Shown here: positions 1 through 64,000 of the stretch, in pieces
Position numbering within the stretch: position 1 is the stretch's first letter
Layout of the letters: each line of letters begins with the position of its first letter
Source of the DNA: Dicyema japonicum
Lineage: Eukaryota > Dicyemida > Rhombozoa > Dicyemidae
Assembly (NCBI GenBank): GCA_011109175.1
Contig: RDEW01000036.1
Span: 127,583-191,582, forward strand
DNA: 64,000 bases
Direction: 5' to 3'
Notes under the pieces: model-generated
Databases searched by the model: none
Told to the model about the DNA's origin: nothing
What the model saw: only the letters and a program-made list of their open reading frames with translations
Position numbers and translations under genes: made by a program

Positions 1-986
1 AACGTACAGGGTGAAACATAAAGCTGTATCGTTCTTTGACAATTTTTCATTCTTAAAGCTGGCATATTCCCTCTCATTCTCACTAACAGAGAATGCTATT
101 ACCTTACCAATGAATTCCAAAAATGGTTGGGCAAGATCCTGGAATAAGCCAATCTATAAAAACAGCTTTGGTGAGGTCGAATTGTCCTGATGAATTTCCA
201 TCGAGACTCTTCAACCTCATCCTTTTATTTGTATTCCTTAGCCAATCAATATTTGCTGTTTTCGAGAATGTTGTGTCATCATCTGAGTTTAGACGTTCCA
301 TTTGGTTATTAAACTCCACCACTTTATCTTCGTACAATTTTTGTTGCATAATTTTCCGCTCATTCGAAGAGGACCCATGAACGAGGTAAACTAACGAGTA
401 AGGTATTCTACCAACAGTTTTTCTTGGCTAAGACGAATGAAGAATTTTTGAGAGACGAATTCAAGGTGTCATCTATCGTCATCTCGTAAAAGAATTTAAC
501 ATTTAATTCTAAATTTTCTGCAAATAATATTTATTACAACTCAATTTATTCGATAATTCTTTTTCAACGTAAATTTTATCAGCATTCATCACAACACGTC
601 TAATTTTCCTTAAAACGATATCTGGAGAGGGATCCTCCATCCATTCCTTTAACTTTGGGAAATCTGGGTGGATTTATCAATTTACCTGCAACCGGTATGT
701 TCTTATCTTTGCTGTCCAAAATCGAGTTGACTACTTTCAGAAAATGGCCAGTTTCGTATAAACATGCCTTGGTATCGTCAATATACTCATCCTCATTTAG
801 TTTAAAGATATAAAGGTTCATTCCTGCAAATTTGTACACATTTGGTGTTTTCTTACCATCAATCTAACGTTGTCATAGCAAAGCAACTGGGATGTTTTTT
901 TCATCCAGATTATTTTTCATCAGGACTTGTTCTCTATGGCTTTCTTCCCATATGTACAACGTTAATTGGTCGTCTGTTTTTCTCAT
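1..986 (-). CDS. Unrecognised spliced gene X1 (3' end outside window)
   Basis: Reconstructed on the minus strand as six coding exons: 986-888, 863-686, 663-541, 517-416, 390-164 and 138-1. The introns are 24, 22, 23, 25 and 25 nt, all GT-AG, and removing each keeps the frame open. At least 289 residues are visible. The protein is lysine- and glutamate-rich with no domain I recognise. It is a clear paralogue of the plus-strand gene at 10283: coding exons 2 and 3 have identical lengths (178 and 123 nt) and intron phases agree. The start is the first ATG after a 27-nt intron in the 5' leader (1022-996). The intron at 391-415 has no counterpart in the paralogue. Seen: ORFs and splice signals. Inferred: that it is an expressed gene. 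Confidence 0.75.
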
Positions 987-10282: not shown

Positions 10283-11424
10283 ATGGGAAAAGCAGACAAG
10301 CATATAGTGTTGGTGTGCATATGTGAAAGAAACATAAGAGAACAAGTCCTGATGAAAATGAATATGGATGTGGATAACCATCCAGTTGGTTTTATTTGAC
10401 ATTGTTAGAGTGATGACGAGAAAGTACCAAACTTGTACGAGTTTGCAGGGATGAAGTTTTTTATCTTTAATGAAAAAAAATTTAAAATTAATGGAATTAC
10501 CAAAACATGTTTCTACAAAACTGATCGTTTTTTAAAAGTAGTCAACTCGATTATTGACTGCAAAGATAAAAATATACCAATTGAAGGTAAAATAATAAAT
10601 TCACTCAGATTTTCCAATGCTAAATAAATGGATGGAAGATCCCTCTCAAGATACTAGTACAAGGAAAATTAGACGTATTGTTATAAATTCGGATGAAATT
10701 TACGTTGAAAAAAGATTATCGGATAAATTAAGTTACAGAAAATTTAATTTGCAGAAATTTTAGAAAGAAATGTTAAAAAATTTTACGACATTATGAAAGA
10801 TGATATGTTAAAAGAAGATCAAGAAAATTCGAAAGATGATATGTTAATTGAAGATCAAGAAAATTCGAAAGATGATATGCTAAAAGAAGATCAAGAAAAT
10901 TCGAAAAATGATATGTTAAATGAAGATCAAGAAAATTCGAAACATGATATGCTAAAAGAAGATCAAGAAAATTCGAAAGATGATATCTCCAAGAGAAACA
11001 GTGTGGAGAATAGTTTTAGAATAGAAAAATCGAAAAGTCATAATGAAACTTCATTAGAGCCTTTTGGTCTCAGAGAATCTGTTCTTATGGATTAATTTAT
11101 TCCAGGATCTCACTAAACCGTTTTTGGATTACATGACGGAAGATGAGACATTAAATGACCATCAAGGAAATTCTGCAATGTATAAACGAAACAAGAAAGA
11201 AGTATTTAACTTCGTTTGTAATCGTTTTTTCCAAATGTTTTCAAATCAACAAAATTATGTGCAAAACAATATAGTGCTAGAAAATATAGATTTTATTGAC
11301 AACTTTCTCTACGAGGATGAAGCCCTTAATTTTTTTACAATACCTGAAATCGATCGGCTAATGGGCGAAATGAAACTGATGAGGTCTAAAATTCTCAATA
11401 AAAACTCACCAGAGCCGTTTAGTC
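10283..11424 (+). CDS. Unrecognised spliced gene X2, acidic repeat protein (truncated by gap)
   Basis: Coding exons are 10283-10384, 10409-10586, 10609-10731, 10755-11080 and 11106 into the assembly gap. The introns are 24, 22, 23 and 25 nt and the joined frame stays open for 349 visible codons. The N-terminal ~140 residues are collinear with X1 (shared stretches include EQVLMK, FAGM, FLKVVNSI, WMEDPS, RKIRR). They are followed by five 12-residue repeats of the type KDDMLKEDQENS, absent from X1, and then a region alike in both (DLTKPFLDYM here, DLAQPFLEFI in X1). Acidic and probably soluble; I see no signal peptide or membrane segment. Function unknown. The gap removes the 3' end. Confidence 0.78.
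10796..10987 (+). repeat. 36-bp in-frame coding repeats
   Basis: Five tandem 36-bp units plus a partial sixth, each encoding a 12-residue acidic repeat inside gene X2. Units differ by one to three bases, and most changes alter residues 2 or 6 of the unit. The X1 paralogue has no such array, so it expanded after the duplication. Confidence 0.9.
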
Positions 11425-12286
11425 NNNNNNNNNNNNNNNNNNNNNNNNNNNNNNNNNNNNNNNNNNNNNNNNNNNNNNNNNNNNNNNNNNNNNNNNNNNN
11501 NNNNNNNNNNNNNNNNNNNNNNNNNNNNNNNNNNNNNNNNNNNNNNNNNNNNNNNNNNNNNNNNNNNNNNNNNNNNNNNNNNNNNNNNNNNNNNNNNNNN
11601 NNNNNNNNNNNNNNNNNNNNNNNNNNNNNNNNNNNNNNNNNNNNNNNNNNNNNNNNNNNNNNNNNNNNNNNNNNNNNNNNNNNNNNNNNNNNNNNNNNNN
11701 NNNNNNNNNNNNNNNNNNNNNNNNNNNNNNNNNNNNNNNNNNNNNNNNNNNNNNNNNNNNNNNNNNNNNNNNNNNNNNNNNNNNNNNNNNNNNNNNNNNN
11801 NNNNNNNNNNNNNNNNNNNNNNNNNNNNNNNNNNNNNNNNNNNNNNNNNNNNNNNNNNNNNNNNNNNNNNNNNNNNNNNNNNNNNNNNNNNNNNNNNNNN
11901 NNNNNNNNNNNNNNNNNNNNNNNNNNNNNNNNNNNNNNNNNNNNNNNNNNNNNNNNNNNNNNNNNNNNNNNNNNNNNNNNNNNNNNNNNNNNNNNNNNNN
12001 NNNNNNNNNNNNNNNNNNNNNNNNNNNNNNNNNNNNNNNNNNNNNNNNNNNNNNNNNNNNNNNNNNNNNNNNNNNNNNNNNNNNNNNNNNNNNNNNNNNN
12101 NNNNNNNNNNNNNNNNNNNNNNNNNNNNNNNNNNNNNNNNNNNNNNNNNNNNNNNNNNNNNNNNNNNNNNNNNNNNNNNNNNNNNNNNNNNNNNNNNNNN
12201 NNNNNNNNNNNNNNNNNNNNNNNNNNNNNNNNNNNNNNNNNNNNNNNNNNNNNNNNNNNNNNNNNNNNNNNNNNNNNNNNNNNNNN
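11425..12286. other. Assembly gap (862 Ns)
   Basis: A run of N. Long open frames that cross it are artefacts: sequence to the left belongs to gene X2, sequence to the right (from 12287) to a LINE. Confidence 0.99.
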
Positions 12287-13560
12287 CTATGACCACGAGC
12301 TTGAAGAACTATCCAAATTGCAGAGGAACCTACGTTTGCAGGGCGAAACCTGTCAGGACCAGGCAAAGGAACACACCCTAAGAGTCATGCGGAACCAAAC
12401 CCTGTATAAAATAAAGAAAATAACGAGGGAAATAAAGGAAAATAAAATTGATGGATTGGCTAAAAAAGTAGAAAGGCTCAAAAACAGAGCGCAGATGTTC
12501 AAGGCTGTTTAGCTACTACATAGAGACACGCAGTCATCAAAAATCACTATACATGATCATTTTGGAAAGACTATGTTAATCAAAAATGAAATTTTATCGG
12601 CCATATCCAGCCATTATCAGCAGGCCTTCAATCAAAACCACGGGAAAAACATCAAACAATTCGATGGTGAAGCACGAGAACTAAATATTCCGATAACGAT
12701 TTTGGAAAAAAAGCCCTGGACAAATTAAACAACAATAGAGCTGCTGGCTCTGACAACATAAATGCAGAACTTCTCAAATATGCACCGATCGAGATCTCTG
12801 AGCTATTAACTGAGATGTACAACAAAACATTCAAATACAACTCACCCCTGGATGTGGGTAATGGCACATTGTTTGCACTACAAAAACCGGGCAAAGCTAA
12901 AGGCCCCTTAACGAATTTAAGACCCATCGTACTATTGACGATTCTACGCAAGACACTATCACTTATAGTGCTGAATAAGATTGGACCTGACATCGAGAAC
13001 TTTCTCTCTCACGGTTAAAGAGGATTCAGGTCAGGGAGATCTACAGCTGATGTGGTCTGGGGACATCAATGGCTTTGTGCAACACATCAAAAGTACAAGG
13101 GGGCTACTGACATTCTTGGCATGGACATGACCAAAGCCTGTGACTTTATACACAGAGGTAGTTGATACCAAGCAACAATCGGAGTTGTCTAGTTTGTCAA
13201 TTACGGCTTGTGAGACTCCCCAGGTTGCAGCGTTGTACATTAGGACCGGTTTCATGAAGGCATTGTATAGTCTTACACGTAATTGTATGCTAATTTGTTT
13301 ACGATGATTCATTGAGTCTGGATATCCTTGAATATATTTGGTCACATCCTTCGGGTGAGCCAGATGACGCCTACTAAAATATCAATGGAGAACTATTTCT
13401 GCCCAGAAGTGAATACCTCGTCCCGTGGAAAACCTCGCATAACTTTGCCAGAGGTTCTACACAAGGACCTTACCAATGTAAGACGAAAGCTGAAAACAGG
13501 AGATGATCTGGATACGCTCAGTATAATGCCATTAACTGTGGAGCATGGAGGAAGTTAGTT
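12287..13560 (+). pseudogene. Family C LINE with internal inversion
   Basis: Plus-strand pieces in order: the basic linker before the RT (12287-12511), RT fingers (GSDNINAELLKY, LQKPGKAKGPLTNLRPIVLL) to about 13140, then the 3' tail (13336-13558: FGHILR, RGKPRITLPEVLHKDLTNVR). Between them, 13145-13345 encodes the thumb (RLYNAFMKPVLMYNAATWG) on the opposite strand. The segment sits where the thumb should be but is flipped, and the palm with YADD is missing. An in-frame stop occurs near 13016. Confidence 0.8.
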
Positions 13561-22571: not shown

Positions 22572-23442
22572 GTAAAAATCGCCCTTCATCCGGCAAAATA
22601 TCCAAGTCCTTTCCGAAGCAACTCAGAATCCATCACTGTCGACTACAAAATGCTAGAGTTTAAGCAAATTCTTGAAAGCACTGTTGAAAGAACCCAATCA
22701 CACAACCATTCGTCATCATTTGAGTTATCCCATGTGGGTATTGGAGGGATAGAACGGGCAAAGAAGGCCCAGTTCGAGGAGGATGGTCAGACTATGAATG
22801 CTGCCTTTAGTGATCTCAAAAACCTGATGGAATTGGCTTCCACCATGACTGATCTGAGCAGATCTCTTTCTGCCAAACTGGAGGCCACGACTTTTTCCAA
22901 CGAAAAGGACTCCTCCTCAGTTGCCTTCAGATCGATGCTCCTCTCTATCGGGATTGACAATCCTGTCACACGTGGGGGTTCGAACTACCACAGTGAATTA
23001 TCCCAGCAGGTCCACGATTTTCTGCTTCCTTTGGTTGAGAAGGTTGGTGGAGTGATGTCCCTGACTGAAGCCTTTTGCTATTACAATCGGGCTCGCTCAA
23101 TGTCTCTGATTTCCCCACAAGACATGGTCCTCGCGGTTGAGAACTTTACCAGTCTTCCAAGACAGAACCTGTTTTTCAAGAAATTCTCGAGTGGGAGTTC
23201 TGTAGTCCTGTCAAATTGTCAAGATAACAAATCAGTACTCCAAAAGTTGGGGGAGGATGTCAAAAAGGCATTGAAAGTGTCTGGTTGTTGTGTTGTGGTA
23301 TGTATTAGTTGAGGTTTATGCCGGGATTACTCGAATTCCCGTGTTCCTTGCCAGAGAGAGACTGAAAGAGGCGGAGGATGAGGGTATCATATGCAGGGAC
23401 GAATCTGAGGAGGGTGTTCACTTCTATTTTAATATATTTTGA
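22572..23442 (+). CDS. VPS36: VPS36, ESCRT-II subunit (N-terminal exons missing)
   Basis: VPS36 is a subunit of ESCRT-II, which sorts ubiquitinated membrane cargo at endosomes. Exon 22572-23291 encodes the end of the GLUE domain (KIALHPAKYPSPF), the GIGGIERAKK linker, a helical region, and the winged-helix core (LLSIGIDNPVTR, GGVMSLTEAFCYYNRAR, LISPQDMVLAVENF). A 22-nt intron (23292-23313; 16 or 19 nt also keep the frame) joins exon 23314-23442, which ends in FLARERLKEAEDEG, CRDESEEGVHFYFNIF and stop, the typical VPS36 C-terminus. In total 282 residues are seen. The exon begins after acceptor TTAG at 22571 with an in-frame stop upstream. The N-terminal GLUE half is not found in 22060-22570, so it is either far upstream or lost. 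Confidence 0.9.
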
Positions 23443-28630: not shown

Positions 28631-29140
28631 ATGGACAAGGAAAGTTCAGATGAGGGCTCTCAACAAGGGGAAAGCGAATCCAGCGAATCATACGATTTCA
28701 ATTTGGACAGGTGACTTTTAAATGTTGTATGGCTAGTGATGTATTATCTCGGGAGTCGAATAATTGGTCTCCTTTCGATGGATATGGGAATGACGATGAG
28801 TCGGAAAGTCCAATGATAGTGACCCCGAGACTCAATTAGAATTTCCATGAAGGAGTCTATATTGAAGAAAAAACCCAACTTTGGAGTTTGCAGTTCCTGT
28901 GATCGACCTTATACCTACAGCTATTGGCAGATCCCTTATATTTTGGTTTCCTGTATTCATACAATGTGCAAGAGATGCATTTATGCTCAACTCAATAAGA
29001 CAGGGTGGACTATTGAGTGCACGTTGTGTGGTGAAGAGACAGAACTTCCTCTAAAAGAGAGATTTTCTGTACTGAGAATCAGCGAAGATGAACTGAATGT
29101 AACCAACCAAAATACAAACTCCGGACAACCCAAGAGTTGA
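28631..29140 (+). CDS. RING-finger protein, 153 residues, three exons
   Basis: Exons 28631-28710, 28737-28807 and 28830-29140 join through introns of 26 and 22 nt into 153 codons. The N-terminal 50 residues are acidic and serine-rich. Residues about 71-118 form a RING finger: CSSC, then SCIHTMCKRC and CTLC, with the expected Cys/His spacing for two zinc ions. A RING suggests an E3 ubiquitin ligase, but no substrate-binding domain follows. The second intron uses a GTCCAA donor, which is unusual; without it two frames fail to join. Confidence 0.7.
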
Positions 29141-35212: not shown

Positions 35213-35992
35213 ATGTATATCAGAAAAGGATTAATTATAACAAATGTTGTAGTTTTTGCTGTAAGAGACTTTAACTCAATTCCAATAGATTTTTGGATCA
35301 ATCTCATCATATTTTGGTTCAGTGCTTATGTATTATTATCACAATGACGAAATACTCAATATTAGGACCTTCAGAATATTAGGAAGCATCCTCATCGCTA
35401 CTGGAACAGCCTCATTTTTAGGAATGATTACTGGAATTGGTGCCCTCTCCAAAAACAAGTTCGCATGTACAATAGTATGGATCGTATGTTAAGGTTTAGT
35501 ACACTATATCACTCATTTTCATTCTCGCCTGTTACATAGCTTTGACTTCAATTTTTATGATGAACAAGGATATTGTCGTAGTACGTACTAATTCTTTAAG
35601 CTTTTCACTGAAGCGAGAGAAAGATTCATATATGCAGTCTTCTATGCCAAACAATATATGGATGCGATTAGCTACTGGCAAAAAACATTGAAATGTTGTG
35701 GAAGTCGTAGTATCTTTGATGTGGAACTCCCCTTTCCCCTAAACTGCTGTTTTTCCAAATATTGTAAAAATCATTATCAGTTCTCAATTGTAATCTAAAT
35801 TTATGAAAGCAGGGTTGTCCTGATAAACTTTGTTATTTGGTCTACAAGTATGAATCATATTACTTTGTTTTCTCAGGAATCATGTTCTCGTTATTAGTTT
35901 GTCTATTATTTTATACATTTTTTAGATATTTGGACTCGTCACTGTTTTTTATTATTAATTGGATTAATAATTCTTTTTATTACTCAATATAG
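35213..35992 (+). CDS. Tetraspanin 1 (225 residues, five exons)
   Basis: Tetraspanins are four-pass membrane proteins that organise membrane microdomains. Exons 35213-35260, 35289-35474, 35500-35574, 35601-35789 and 35813-35992 are separated by introns of 28, 25, 26 and 23 nt. The protein has a short N-terminus, TM1 across exons 1-2, TM2 (IATGTASFLGMITG), TM3 (YTISLIFILACYIALTSIF), a large extracellular loop with the CCG signature (LKCCGS) and LNCC and CPDK cysteines, and TM4 (YYFVFSGIMFSLLVCLLFY). Compared with the other two copies, the loop is the most diverged and the C-terminus 14 or more residues longer. All frames are intact, which argues for function. Confidence 0.88.
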
Positions 35993-36705: not shown

Positions 36706-36708
36706 AAC

Positions 36709-37734
36709 CTCGACGGAGCAAATATTTAATGTCCGATTCGACGATGATACATGGATTCAGGCTACACTCCCAGTTAGATTCGGGGGTCTTGGAATCCGTC
36801 GAACTTTGGACGTCTCACTTCCCGCTCATTTATCATCACTCACGGCCTGCGAACCTTTGGTCAGGAGGATTCTACACTCCCCACCCGAATTCTCAACTGA
36901 CCAAGAGATAATCCACGCACGAGAAGCCTGGAATGCCACCAACCTCCCCCTGCCTCCTTCCCAAGATCGCCAGCGATACCTGGACAACTTATTATGCTGG
37001 AAATCATTTGGACTCCTACTGGAATCTGCCAATCAGCACCGACGCGCTTGTTTCCTTTCGGGGGCTTCCCCTGAGAGCGGAGCTTGGCTAAACGCCATCC
37101 CCAATGGAGCTTTGGGCACTTTTCTGGATGATGAATGCGTTAGAACTGGTATCTCTCTGCGGCTGGGACTAAAAGTATGTGTACCTCACCCGTGCCGATG
37201 TGGCATCCTGATAGACTGCTATGGCCTGCACCCTCTCGCCTGCAGGAGAAGCGCTGGCAGATCCCCAAGACACAAGGCTCTGAATGAAATTGTCAGGCTA
37301 GATATGGATGCTGCTGGATACTCGGCCATTCTTGAACCGGTCGGATTATGCAGAAGTGACGGGAAACGACCGGACGGGATGACCATATTTCCATTTGAGG
37401 CCGGGAAACCACTGGTTTGGTATGTGACATGTACAGACACGTTCGCCCAGAAAAATCTTCACGAGAGTGCTACAAGGGCCTGCTCTGCAGCCGTCAAGGC
37501 GGAGAAGGCCAAACTCGTTAAATACGTCGACCTTCCCGATGATGTCAAATTTGTTCCCCTTGCTATGGAGACTTCCGGATCCTACTCCCCCTCTACACTC
37601 GAGTTTTTCGGACGTCTTGGAAACCGGATCACCTCATGCACTGGAGATCTCCGTGAACGCCGCTGGCTATTTGAGCGAATTTCGCTCGCAATTTTGAGAG
37701 GGAACAGCCACGCAGTGAGGGCGGCAACTACCTG
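36709..37734 (+). CDS. Family B retroelement, C-terminal ORF (best copy)
   Basis: An uninterrupted frame of about 340 codons following a stop at 36706-36708. It begins in the post-RT region (WIQATLPVRFGGLGIRR) and passes through QHRRACFLSG and GTFLDDECVRTGISLRLG. A CCHC-like knuckle follows (CRCG then GLHPLAC), then SPRHKALNEI, LEPVGLCRSDGKRPDGMT and VTCTDTF, ending in ILRGNSHAVRAATT. RPDG plus a downstream acidic strand resembles a PD-(D/E)xK restriction-like endonuclease as found in R2/R4-type LINEs. Here the usual WDATC is WYVTC, which may abolish cleavage. The RT itself is absent, so this is a 5'-truncated copy. It abuts an R4-like fragment at 37742. Confidence 0.75.
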
Positions 37735-37741
37735 ACTTCTA

Positions 37742-38113
37742 TTGTTTAATAAAAATTTCTTTAACAAAAAAATCAATAAACTTGATATTTTTGTGTATGA
37801 CAAAACAAAGAAGGAAGTAACCTTAATCGAAGTGGGGATTACCTCACAAGACCGAATAAAGCAATTTGAAGTTGATAAACTTCACAAATATGACTTGCTT
37901 GCAAATTCACTTTCGCTGCTCTATGAATGCCAAGTGAAGATTATTCCAGTGGTTTTGACATGGGATGGAGTTGTCTCAAGATGCTTCGAGAATCATATGG
38001 ATAAATTATCTATTGAAGAACCAACGAGGACTTACATCCAATCGGTTGTGCTGAAGAGAACGCTCGAAAGTATGCTCATTGAACATAAGCATGGGATGAG
38101 GGTATACGATTAA
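37742..38113 (+). pseudogene. R4/Dong-like restriction-like endonuclease fragment
   Basis: The ORF reads LDIFVYDKTKKEVTLIEVGI, then EVDKLHKYDLLA and IIPVVLTWDGVVSR. (P)D followed by E-x-G and a later K matches the PD-(D/E)xK nuclease at the C-terminus of R4/Dong-type LINEs. It starts directly after a family B tail, forming a fusion of two elements; there is no RT upstream. A parallel copy lies at about 40130-40320 behind its RT. Confidence 0.75.
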
Positions 38114-47078: not shown

Positions 47079-47814
47079 ATGTCTCTCAGGAAAGGAATAA
47101 TTATAACCAATATCATAGTTTTGACTGTAAGATTGTAGATCACTCCCAATAGATTGGTACAGCAATGTCATTCTATGCTGGTTCGGTGCTTATGGATTAT
47201 TATCGTAATGACAAACTACTCTCTATTTGGACATTCAAAACATTTGGAATCATCCTCCTCACCACTGGAGCAGTCTCATTTTTAGGAATGGTCACCGGAA
47301 TTGGTGCCCTCTCCAAAAACAAGATCGCACGTTCATCAGTATGATTGGTATTTTGAGGTTTAGTATGCTATATCACTTGTTTTCGTTATCATTTGTGTTG
47401 TAGCTTTGACCACCATTTTTATAATATACAGAGATACTGTTTTTGTTAATGATTATTCTTTTAGCTTTTCGATGAATTAAAAGAAAGATTCGACCTTGGA
47501 GTCTACAATTTCAATGATTATAAGAACCAGATGGATTACTGGCAAAGTTCCTTTAAATGCTGTGGAAGTAGTTCTTACAAGGATTACAACATCCCTTTAC
47601 CGTCAACTTGTTGTAAGATCAGATTTTGTTCAAATCGAGAAGCGTTTAAAATGGTAATCTAAATTAATAAAAGCAGGGTTGCGCCAGTAAAATTAGTCAC
47701 GTGGTCTACAAGTATGAAGTCTATTACTTTGTTTTCTCAGGAATTATTTTCTCGATATTAGTTTGCCTATTATTTTACACGTATTTAGATTTTGGGGTTC
47801 TTCAATGTTTTTAA
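47079..47814 (+). CDS. Tetraspanin 2 (211 residues, five exons)
   Basis: Exons 47079-47126, 47153-47338, 47364-47438, 47465-47653 and 47677-47814, with introns of 26, 25, 26 and 23 nt at exactly the same positions as in the other two copies. TM2 GIILLTTGAVSFLGMVTG and TM3 YAISLVFVIICVVALTTIF are clear. The large loop has KCCGSS, PSTCC, a single Cys and GCAS, giving the six cysteines of the family. TM4 is YYFVFSGIIFSILVCLLFY. All frames are intact. It is closer to the copy at 58403 than to that at 35213. Confidence 0.9.
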
Positions 47815-58402: not shown

Positions 58403-59114
58403 ATGTCTATCAGAAAAGGAATAATTATAGCCAATATAGTAGTTTTGACTGTAAGAGACTGTAGATCATTTCCAATAGATTTCAACAGCAATGTCATTCT
58501 ATGTCGGCTCGGTGCTTATGGATTATTATCTCAATGACAAACTGCTTTCTATTTCGACCTTCAAAACATTTGGAATCCTCCTCCTCACAACTGGAGTAGG
58601 CTCATTTTTAGGAATGGTCAGTGGAATTAGTGCCCTCTCCAAAAACATGTACGCTTGTGCATCAGTATGATTCGTATTCTAAGGTGTAGTTTGCTATATC
58701 ACTCGTTTTCGTTATTATATGTATCATAGCTTTGACCAGCATCTTTATAATGAACAGAGATATTGTTATCGTTAATAATTATTTTTAGCTTTTTTCTGAA
58801 TTGAAATATAAATTCAAAATTGGAGTGGACAATTACAATGTTTATTATAAACAGATGGATTACTGGCAAAGTTCCTTCATATGCTGTGGAAGTTTTTCTT
58901 ACGAAGATTACAACATCCCTTTACCGTCAAGCTGTTGTAAGACCCATGTAGTCTGTAATGATCGAGAAGCGTTTAGAATGGTAATCTAAATTCATGAAAG
59001 CAGGGTTGTGCCAGTAAAATTAGTTATGCGGTCTACAAGTTTGAATCTTTTTATTTTATGTTCTCAGGAATCTTTTTCTCGATATTAGTTTGCCTATTAT
59101 TTACACGTTTTTAG
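58403..59114 (+). CDS. Tetraspanin 3 (203 residues, five exons)
   Basis: Exons 58403-58450, 58479-58664, 58690-58764, 58789-58980 and 59004-59114. The introns are 28, 25, 24 (18 is also possible) and 23 nt. Four membrane segments: TM1 in residues about 5-25, TM2 about 42-66, TM3 about 79-100 and TM4 about 180-200. The large extracellular loop has C135, C136 (CCG), C152, C153 (PSSCC), C159 and C169: the six cysteines of a typical tetraspanin. A one-base deletion relative to the other copies shortens the C-terminal tail after TM4, which is tolerable. All else intact. A member of a small tandem family; partner proteins cannot be told from sequence. Confidence 0.9.
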
Positions 59115-59189
59115 ATGTTGGGGTTCTTTGTTGTTTTAAAAATTAATCGGATTAATGATTCCTTTAATTAATATAATTTTGTTTACTCA

Positions 59190-61615: not shown

Positions 61616-62457
61616 CAGTCAACCCTCTCTATAGTGAACAAAATGTCCACGTAAAAACACGATGTTCACTAATCTTCAATAGTGAACAAAAAATAGAACA
61701 AGGAATCAATAATAACAATAATAAAGTAATTACAAAAATAAATTAGATGCTTTTTTCATGTAATCGGATATTTTTTGTGAATGACTAGTATGATAATTTT
61801 TTTAAATTTTTTGTATTTCGTAAACTAATTTTCTTCTTTCATAATCATTATCAAGAAACCATAGTTCGAGCGCATTGGTATATTTATTAACTTCATATAG
61901 TGTCGGAACATGAATTTTTTCATCTTTCTCTTCAACATGCTGTTTTAGTTTCTCGAAAAGTTATGTATGAAGTTTTCACCATCAATTTGATTATTTTCAT
62001 GAATCATAAAATTTTTATCATCTTTTTCTTCTATTCCTGTCAGGTTCTGTATTAACTCATTTTCAAAAGCTTTCTTGAAACAATTTGTAATTGTAAATTG
62101 TGATATTTCAAGCCAAACTTGATTTATGATTATGAAAAAATTCTGATTTCCTTCTTTTAAAAAAATAATAAACGTTTTTGATTTTGTACTATGCTAACTA
62201 TTGTAAAACGTGTAATTTATTCATTTTAAATAATTTTGTATATACATATAAAATTATTAATTTATGTTCACAAACATTTGACGTTCTATTCTTTAATACT
62301 GAACACCAAAATATTTAAATAAATGATATACATTTTTAAAAGTGGTTTTCATTTTATAATTAATATATTAATGACAATTACTAATTTTCGTTATTGTGAA
62401 TTGCATTAATATGGCATGTTCACTATAGAGAGGGTTCATTATAGAGAGGATTGACTG
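61616..62457 (-). mobile_element. Tigger-like transposon (842 bp)
   Basis: The left end CAGTCAACCCTCTCTATAG and the right end, inverted, CAGTCAATCCTCTCTATAA are flanked by TA (61614-61615, 62458-62459). Near the right end the CTATAGAGAGG motif is doubled. The minus strand encodes the transposase C-terminus: WLEISQFTITNCFKKAFENE (about 62130-62070), LFEKLKQHVEEKDEKIHVPT and LYEVNKYTNALELWFLDND. The DDE domain is missing. It lies at the 3' end of the family C LINE. Confidence 0.85.
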
Positions 62458-62463
62458 TAGTTA

Positions 62464-64000
62464 GTCTTTTCCATCTTCCTCTGTCGAATGCGAGTGATCT
62501 CAATTCGTCCAGGTCGTCTCCCGTCTTTAGATTTTTTCTCACACGATTTAAGTCTTTGTTTAGGGCTGTCGAAAGTGTCGATCTAGGTCGTCCGCGGAAA
62601 AGTTTTTCGCATCTGTCAAAGTAATCTTCCATCGCTTTGTTAGCGGGTGCGTCCGGGTTCATTCTTAGTACATGCCCAAATTGCCTCCACCGGGCATCTA
62701 TCACATCTTCGCTAAGAAAACATACAGATACCAGTGGTTGATATTCTACGTGGCCACTCCATTCCGAGTAAGCTTCTTAGTTGCCTTCTATCGAACGAAT
62801 CCAGTTTTGATAGTTCTTTGAAGGAACTTCCCCATGTCCCAGCGTTATACAGTAGGATCGGTTTCACAAACGCGTTGTAAAGCCTGCATCTGATGTCAAC
62901 TCCAAGTCCTTTGGCCCTTAGCCATCCTTTCTTCAGTTTAGCCATTGCTGCATTTGCCAGTGTTTTCCTCCTTAGTACATCTTCAGCGTCTCCTAGTAGA
63001 GAGCCGAGCTTATTAGTACGTCTCCATCTTTCATGAGTAATATCGTCTTCTCTTTTGATTTCCGTAATTTCAGTTTTGTTAACATTTACGCTGAGAAACC
63101 ATTTTTCAAGCTCCGCAGGTGCATTTTCTAGCAGGTGTTGGAGTGCGGTCACATCCCGTGATACAAAATCCACATCATCCGCATAAGATGTCTCTTCTAT
63201 GTCTCCTATATAGCATTTACGGAGGTCGCGGAGTGCAGATTCAAGGTATATGGTGAATAGTAAAGGGGAGAGGGAATCACCCTGGGGTGTCCCAATCGTT
63301 GTTTTGAAACTGCGGGAAGTTGCTCCTTCTGTCCTCACAGATAGTCTTGTGTTCGCAAGTAGTGATCTGATTATCCTAACCGACGCACATTAATCAGTTT
63401 CTGTCTGTTTATTGAGTCGAAAGCTCTGGAGAGATCTATTCCCAACACGGTTGTTGCGCTCTTGAATCTTTGGTGCGTTGCGCAGCGCCATCTGTGGCTC
63501 CATACAATGTCTGCCGTAGACCTCCCTTCTCGGAACCCACTTTGACTTGCTGGTAGGTATAGATCCGCCACACCCTTTATCCGGCTTAGTGCAATGTTTG
63601 CCAGCACCTTGCGTATCGAATTCAGAAGTATTATCGGGCGGAGATTTTCTACTGGTCCTTTTGATTTGTTCGGTTTTTGTATGGGTATTAATAATCCATT
63701 TCCAAGTCCTAGATCGGTATTAGTTTCACAGACGTCATTTAGGGTTTTTGCAATTGTGTCGCTAAGTTTTTTTGGCCCATATTTTAGGAGCTCAGGGCTT
63801 ATGTTGTCCGGCCCAGCACTCTTGTTGTTCTTCAGTTTATTTATCGCTAATTCCACCTCTTCCACTGTGATTGGGATTTTTAGCCCCTTTGCTTCTCCTT
63901 GGAAAGGGGGAAAGTCATTATTTTCTTTATTCAACAGTGTTTCGAAGTGTCGTGCAATCAATTCTGCTTTTTCTTTCGGGTTACCCACGAATTTTCCATC
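62464..64000 (-). pseudogene. Family C LINE reverse transcriptase (best copy)
   Basis: On the minus strand, 63988-63371 holds the linker (KEKAELIARHFETLL), fingers (NNKSAGPDNISPELLKYGPK, PIQKPNKSKGPVENLRPIIL, SGFREGRSTADIVW) and the first palm Asp (LGIDLSRAFDSINR). After a frameshift near 63385, 63338-62712 holds GTPQGDSLSPLLFTIYLESA, SYADDVDFVSRD (catalytic YADD), the thumb and RLYNAFVKPILLYNAGTWG. A second shift near 62710 leads to the tail (FGHVLRMNPDAPANKAMEDY). Only two or three frame breaks in 1.5 kb make it the youngest copy. The 5' part lies outside the window, so no endonuclease can be assigned to this copy. Confidence 0.92.

Follow-up and report, generated by a model that had tools for sequence, protein, structure and literature searches.

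The very short introns described here would, with a probability that we put at about 0.9, be U2-type spliceosomal introns of the ordinary kind, belonging to a dicyemid (a minute parasitic animal) and squeezed into a narrow length range around 23 nt. As far as can be judged from the DNA, this reading is founded on their GT-AG ends, their weak 5' splice site and an A enriched at position -7, after which too few bases would remain to hold a normal-sized pyrimidine tract, and also on canonical U1, U2 and U6 contact sequences and on genes for Prp8, U2AF2, RED, SLU7 and PRP18. The tiny size itself is an already known dicyemid trait, introns of 25-27 nt having been published. What is added is a larger set of guided introns, a branch-site-like signal and tested splicing parts; neither a new species nor record-short animal introns are claimed. 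The preliminary description of this DNA, which had reported tiny introns in all the genes it reconstructed, is partly confirmed and was borne out wherever it could be tested.

Short introns in the window and elsewhere in the genome

The window, i.e. the whole stretch of 64,000 nucleotides that was analysed, covers bases 127583-191582 of one contig in a genome of 64.67 Mb and 191 contigs. Its features are collected in Table 1. When the X2 gene was aligned with its spliced paralogue X1, 90 of 155 residues were identical, and the three extra segments occurred with the lengths given in Table 1 at matching positions, both in splice-site-blind runs and in runs that take GT-AG ends into account (GT-AG mode). 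The intron phases of the two genes agree in GT-AG mode, and the first and last introns have GT..AG ends even in the splice-blind alignment. X1 gave no Pfam match at an E value of 0.01. Because of the run of N, the first gene is not traceable beyond position 11424.

Table 1. Features of the window, with intron positions and, in brackets, intron lengths in nt
Feature	Positions	Strand	Introns or remark
X1	10283-10810	+	10385-10408 (24, phase 0), 10587-10608 (22, phase 1), 10732-10754 (23, phase 1)
X2, paralogue of X1	462-986	-	887-864 (24), 685-664 (22), 540-518 (23)
Run of 862 N	11425-12286		cuts the first gene
VPS36 homologue	22572-23439	+	23284-23308 (25)
Tetraspanin 3	35213-35929	+	35261-35288 (28), 35475-35499 (25), 35578-35600 (23), 35790-35812 (23)
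Tetraspanin A	47079-47811	+	47127-47152 (26), 47339-47363 (25), 47439-47464 (26; or 47445-47464, 20), 47654-47676 (23)
Tetraspanin B	58403-59137	+	58451-58478 (28), 58665-58689 (25), 58765-58788 (24; or 58771-58788, 18), 58981-59003 (23)

Regarding the tetraspanins, tetraspanin A was spliced by reading the three frames and was then used as guide for tetraspanins B and 3. Splicing increased its Pfam Tetraspanin score to 86.7 bits (Pfam positions 3-221 of 225), compared to 38.2 bits for the unspliced sequence; a search of a protein database returned no relative of tetraspanin A at an E value of 0.001. Tetraspanin B shares 157 of 213 residues with tetraspanin A and has its introns at common positions, and tetraspanin 3 shares 110 of 206 residues and four intron positions with spliced tetraspanin A in GT-AG mode, its own spliced product scoring 51.9 bits. 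In all three paralogues the introns lie at residues 16, 78, 104 and 167, always in phase 0. The frame of tetraspanin B is broken near 59101, probably by an assembly indel, and the part before the break reached 60.7 bits. The gaps of this gene measured 28, 25, 21 and 23 nt in the blind run and 28, 25, 24 and 23 nt in GT-AG mode. It should be noted that the length of the third intron is ambiguous by 6 nt in tetraspanins A and B (Table 1), since a second GT lies in frame and frame restoration is therefore unable to fix the intron length. The VPS36 homologue is identical to human VPS36 at 114 of 305 positions, and its spliced product from 22650 on matched the Pfam family EAP30/Vps36 with 136.2 bits. 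Alignment with a paralogue or homologue thus backs the tiny GT-AG introns described in the X pair, the three tetraspanins and VPS36, as well as the conservation of their positions in paralogues (three in the X pair, four in the tetraspanins). By eye, retrotransposon-like open frames were also noticed at 12671-13018, 36707-38113 and 62423-63389.

Outside the window, introns were collected from 17 alignments made with 15 human guides, which covered PRPF8, U2AF2, HSP60, eight CCT subunits, SLU7, PRP18, three PAX genes and VPS36. The human PRPF8 guide matched a PDB chain from end to end. Aligned with the genome without regard to splice sites, it was identical at 1934 of 2308 aligned positions (84%), and all 35 introns of this locus measured 20-26 nt; of two frame skips, one was read by the gene finder as a further intron of 23 nt. 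GT-AG was found among the equally scoring placements for 27 of these 35 introns, a number that rises to 31 if placements differing by up to 4 score units are admitted. In GT-AG mode, the 17 alignments yielded 117 introns that passed the flank filter, 18 being dropped. As is characteristic of U2-type introns, 113 of the 117 have GT-AG ends and one has GC-AG ends; the three others are gaps of 17, 54 and 14 nt and are probably misalignments. The GT/GC-AG set comprises one intron of 68 nt and 113 that measure 20-29 nt, with a mean of 23.55 nt (sd 1.48) and a median of 23 nt; these 113 come from 15 of the 17 alignments, and no VPS36 intron passed the flank filter. In blind mode, 112 of 135 kept gaps were 20-29 nt long and 19 exceeded 40 nt. 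Among the 115 blind gaps of 15-40 nt, GT..AG lay within 3 bases in 102, compared to 19 for the first pair differing from it by more than one base. The RED alignment (128 of 396 residues identical; blind gaps of 12, 12, 34, 32, 235 and 244 nt, none within the 20-29 nt band) was excluded from the set because it was too weak to map introns. The intron sizes previously given as 20-38 nt therefore stand from 20 to 29 nt in the set of 17 alignments, whereas introns of 30-38 nt were confirmed nowhere in the window.

Several features of these loci deserve mention. The intron of 68 nt is located in U2AF2, and all others retained in the GT/GC-AG set measure at most 29 nt. Small frame breaks, probably assembly indels, are present in U2AF2, HSPD1, CCT2, CCT5, CCT6, CCT7, Pax6 and PAXb and at one place in PRPF8. 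The introns of PRPF8 and CCT4 are almost pure A/T (GC 0.05 and 0.07), with a low exon GC3 (0.19 and 0.18, respectively), and intron GC is 0.22-0.38 in the other nine genes measured.

The preliminary description had found its introns through the restoration of an open frame. This criterion proved weak when used alone and held where a homologue or paralogue served as guide. With a short-intron prior, an unguided gene finder run on the window predicted 170 introns with GT-AG ends and a length of 20-29 nt, and four of seven decoy dinucleotide pairs outnumbered them (CA-AG 237, TG-GA 265, GA-TG 306 and GT-CA 315), three giving fewer (CT-AG 110, GT-AC 116 and AG-GT 133); with a looser length prior, almost no introns were found. 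For this reason, the unguided predictions for the window were discarded as evidence, and the accepted introns all rest on a homologue or paralogue. The decoy counts are what would be expected if, in A/T-rich DNA full of stops, the removal of 20-30 nt mended frames by chance and the introns were unreal. We consider such an artefact very improbable in view of the blind protein alignments, in which gaps of 20-29 nt prevail and GT-AG lies nearby, of the intron positions common to paralogues, and of the Dicyema acuticephalum gene structures that, according to the published account, were derived from genomic and cDNA clones (PMC2222250). It is refuted for the homology-guided genes. The LRR-like gene, its neighbour and the RING-like stretch at 28889, which were obtained by frame restoration, are candidates only, and the LRR-like prediction gave no Pfam match at an E value of 0.01.

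Intron signals and spliceosomal components

The 5' splice site is weak, positions 3-6 carrying together about 1.5 bits in 101 introns and G being present at +5 in just 16%. Near the 3' end, 62 of the 113 introns have an A at -7, where 34.0 were expected from within-intron shuffles (none of 2000 as high), and this is the sole clear peak among the 13 positions scanned. Likewise, in 53 of the 113 introns the A that pairs best with U2 is located 6-8 nt upstream of the last base, compared to 28.3 expected (none of 300 as high). The median distance between this A and the 5' site is 16 nt. The real U2 template ranked 4th of 90 permuted templates, so that the branch signal appears positional more than sequence-specific. 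In the PRPF8 introns alone this signal is weak, being matched in 34 of 500 and in 32 of 300 shuffles.

Matches to spliceosomal RNAs were found at 25 places for U2, 11 for U1 and 10 for U6. In the eight best loci of each family, the contact sequence was GTAGTA in 8/8 for U2, ACTTACCTG in 7/8 for U1 and ACAGAG in 8/8 for U6. U2 is multicopy, 22 of its 25 listed matches being over threshold and several of them lying on one contig. By contrast with its canonical 5' end, the body of U1 looks divergent, none of the 11 places reaching the Rfam threshold of 69.5: the best scored 69.0 and the others between 61.1 and 45.7. Among the protein genes, RED, SLU7 and PRP18 are above their family cut-offs in the genome, and spliced alignments gave 241 of 551 identical residues for SLU7, 147 of 340 for PRP18 and 230 of 471 for U2AF2. 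In the genome profile search no single exon match of U2AF2 came up to the family cut-off; given the spliced alignment, a loss of U2AF2 was not found. From work in yeast, a loss of SLU7 or PRP18 would be expected where branch site and AG lie close together, and no such loss was found here, both genes being present.

Dicyemids eliminate DNA in their somatic cells. Together with the circular contigs reported in a Dicyema assembly, this might suggest that the short segments are removed by other means than splicing, either through elimination of the DNA or through bypass during translation. It is highly unlikely, more so than the artefact discussed above, given the GT-AG ends, the positioned branch-like A and the canonical snRNA contacts, to which are added Pax introns with positions and phases as published for Dicyema and the genomic and cDNA clones of the published account (PMC2222250).

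An in-frame stop is present in 31 of the 33 introns with a length divisible by three, compared to 16/33 and 18/33 (34/66) for the other two frames (Fisher p 1.3e-5, the frames of one intron not being independent). When the intron ends were held fixed, the excess became smaller, 31 observed comparing with 27.6 expected (sd 1.6; a value as high in 63 of 2000). Even if the terminal TAG is disregarded, 24 of the 33 contain a stop. This excess fits a surveillance of unspliced mRNA, short of proof. Cryptic GT..AG pairs in exons are depleted most strongly at 20-29 nt (49 compared to 79.4), and selection against cryptic exon introns was dropped as unspecific, a control pattern being depleted too.

Probable dicyemid origin of the DNA

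The dicyemid origin suggested in the preliminary description is supported by the sequence of one gene, Pax6. The search matched 7066 proteins in a database of about 5.8 billion, and the best of the 120 matches listed, with an E value of 3e-103, was the Pax6 protein from Dicyema acuticephalum, which is 64% identical across 99% of the query. The matches listed after it had E values of 1e-85 and weaker; identity was 46-56% where almost the whole query was covered, and a few further down the list showed 64-71% identity over less than half of it. The last 30 or so residues of the query are a wrong join derived from the human PAX6 guide, by which Dicyema is not favoured. Aligned end to end in blind mode, the Pax6 locus and the Dicyema protein share 240 of 413 residues. 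In GT-AG mode, the sites of the paired domain and the homeodomain are occupied by introns of 24, 23 and 25 nt, whose phases (0, 1 and 0) are those published for Dicyema; further introns of 21, 24 and 31 nt and two frame skips were also seen, as was one gap of 15 nt in the blind run. In a tree of 20 rows, 18 of which were chosen by hand among the 120 listed proteins, the Pax6 of this genome and that of D. acuticephalum group together with 93/95 support, below the tool's own bootstrap mark of 95 and with long branches flagged. PAX matches were obtained at four places, including a divergent copy that stands apart from Pax6 in the tree. The guided introns are also near 25 nt, as expected of Dicyemida.

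Tiny introns are known in ciliates and in one nucleomorph, and a ciliate, algal nucleomorph or orthonectid source is nonetheless scarcely credible given the PAX matches, a Prp8 so close to the human protein, a Pax6 that among the listed matches is closest to that of Dicyema and groups with it, and the median intron of 57 bp published for the orthonectid Intoshia linei.

Spliceosome assembly and comparison with known systems

The phenomenon is known; for the mechanism by which an animal spliceosome handles introns of about 23 letters, a proposal can be made. For the U2-type introns of a dicyemid proposed here, the weak 5' site would first be paired by U1 and then handed to U6, and the branch site about 16 nt downstream would be taken by U2, with U2AF held beside the AG. 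The 5' site and the branch site would probably be bound in turn or across the exon and be brought together later, and introns retained by mistake would be destroyed by nonsense-mediated decay. In the human B complex, the distance from 5' splice site to branch site is about 52 nt by a modelled estimate. A linker of 16 nt is too short for a B complex arranged in the human way, which makes stepwise or cross-exon binding probable; with a nearly human Prp8 this is the likeliest route, the order of U1 and U2 binding being one that we infer. A stricter proposal, to which we give rather less than even weight, is that nearly all introns are too short for both a cross-intron pre-spliceosome and a human-type B complex, so that U1 and U2 would necessarily bind in turn or across exons and an almost human Prp8 would work on a different assembly route.

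The distance between 5' site and branch site is about one third of the modelled human minimum, yet Prp8 has kept 84% identity with its human counterpart. Since a near-human Prp8 copes with so short a distance, dicyemids may offer a natural means of testing which steps of assembly are truly required, and the branch-site-like A at -7 supplies concrete positions that can be tested.

Ogino reportedly studied 40 genes of D. japonicum in 2010, as related in a paper citing that work. The published assembly of this species has a low GC content and 65-67.5 Mb (PMC6736024), in agreement with the genome used here. Its mean intron is given as 38 bp over all gene models (PMC6736024), compared to 23.6 nt for the guided introns. 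In the accounts of D. acuticephalum and Dicyema sp. (PMC2222250, PMC2483917, PMC6543705), as here, GT-AG introns form a narrow band near 25 nt, genes have many introns, the 5' splice site is weak, and Pax intron positions and phases are the same. For different genes, these accounts give means of 26.2 (n=16) and 24.9 (n=41) and a median of 27, compared to our mean of 23.6 (113 guided introns below 40 nt), which is slightly below that of D. acuticephalum (24.93; Welch p 0.002, our mean being taken from other genes and with introns above 40 nt left out). By contrast, the branch-site-like A present here has no counterpart in the report on D. acuticephalum, as the 2008 study saw no branch-point signature in its 41 introns.

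Human splicing is estimated to require some 50 nt from 5' site to branch site (PMC6692369, PMC8363638), compared to about 16 nt here, and the human short introns described as needing Smu1/RED (PMC6692369) or SPF45 (PMC8363638) pose the same structural problem; the gene for RED, tied to those human introns (PMC6692369), is also present in the dicyemid genome. In the ciliate Stentor coeruleus, as here, canonical snRNA contacts accompany tiny introns, which measure 15-16 nt and in most of which the branch A occupies position 10 or 11 (PMC9505925). The suggestion that the present introns bear on the lower size limit of splicing is thus only partly right: those of Stentor undercut the 20-29 nt found here, which is not the eukaryotic limit.
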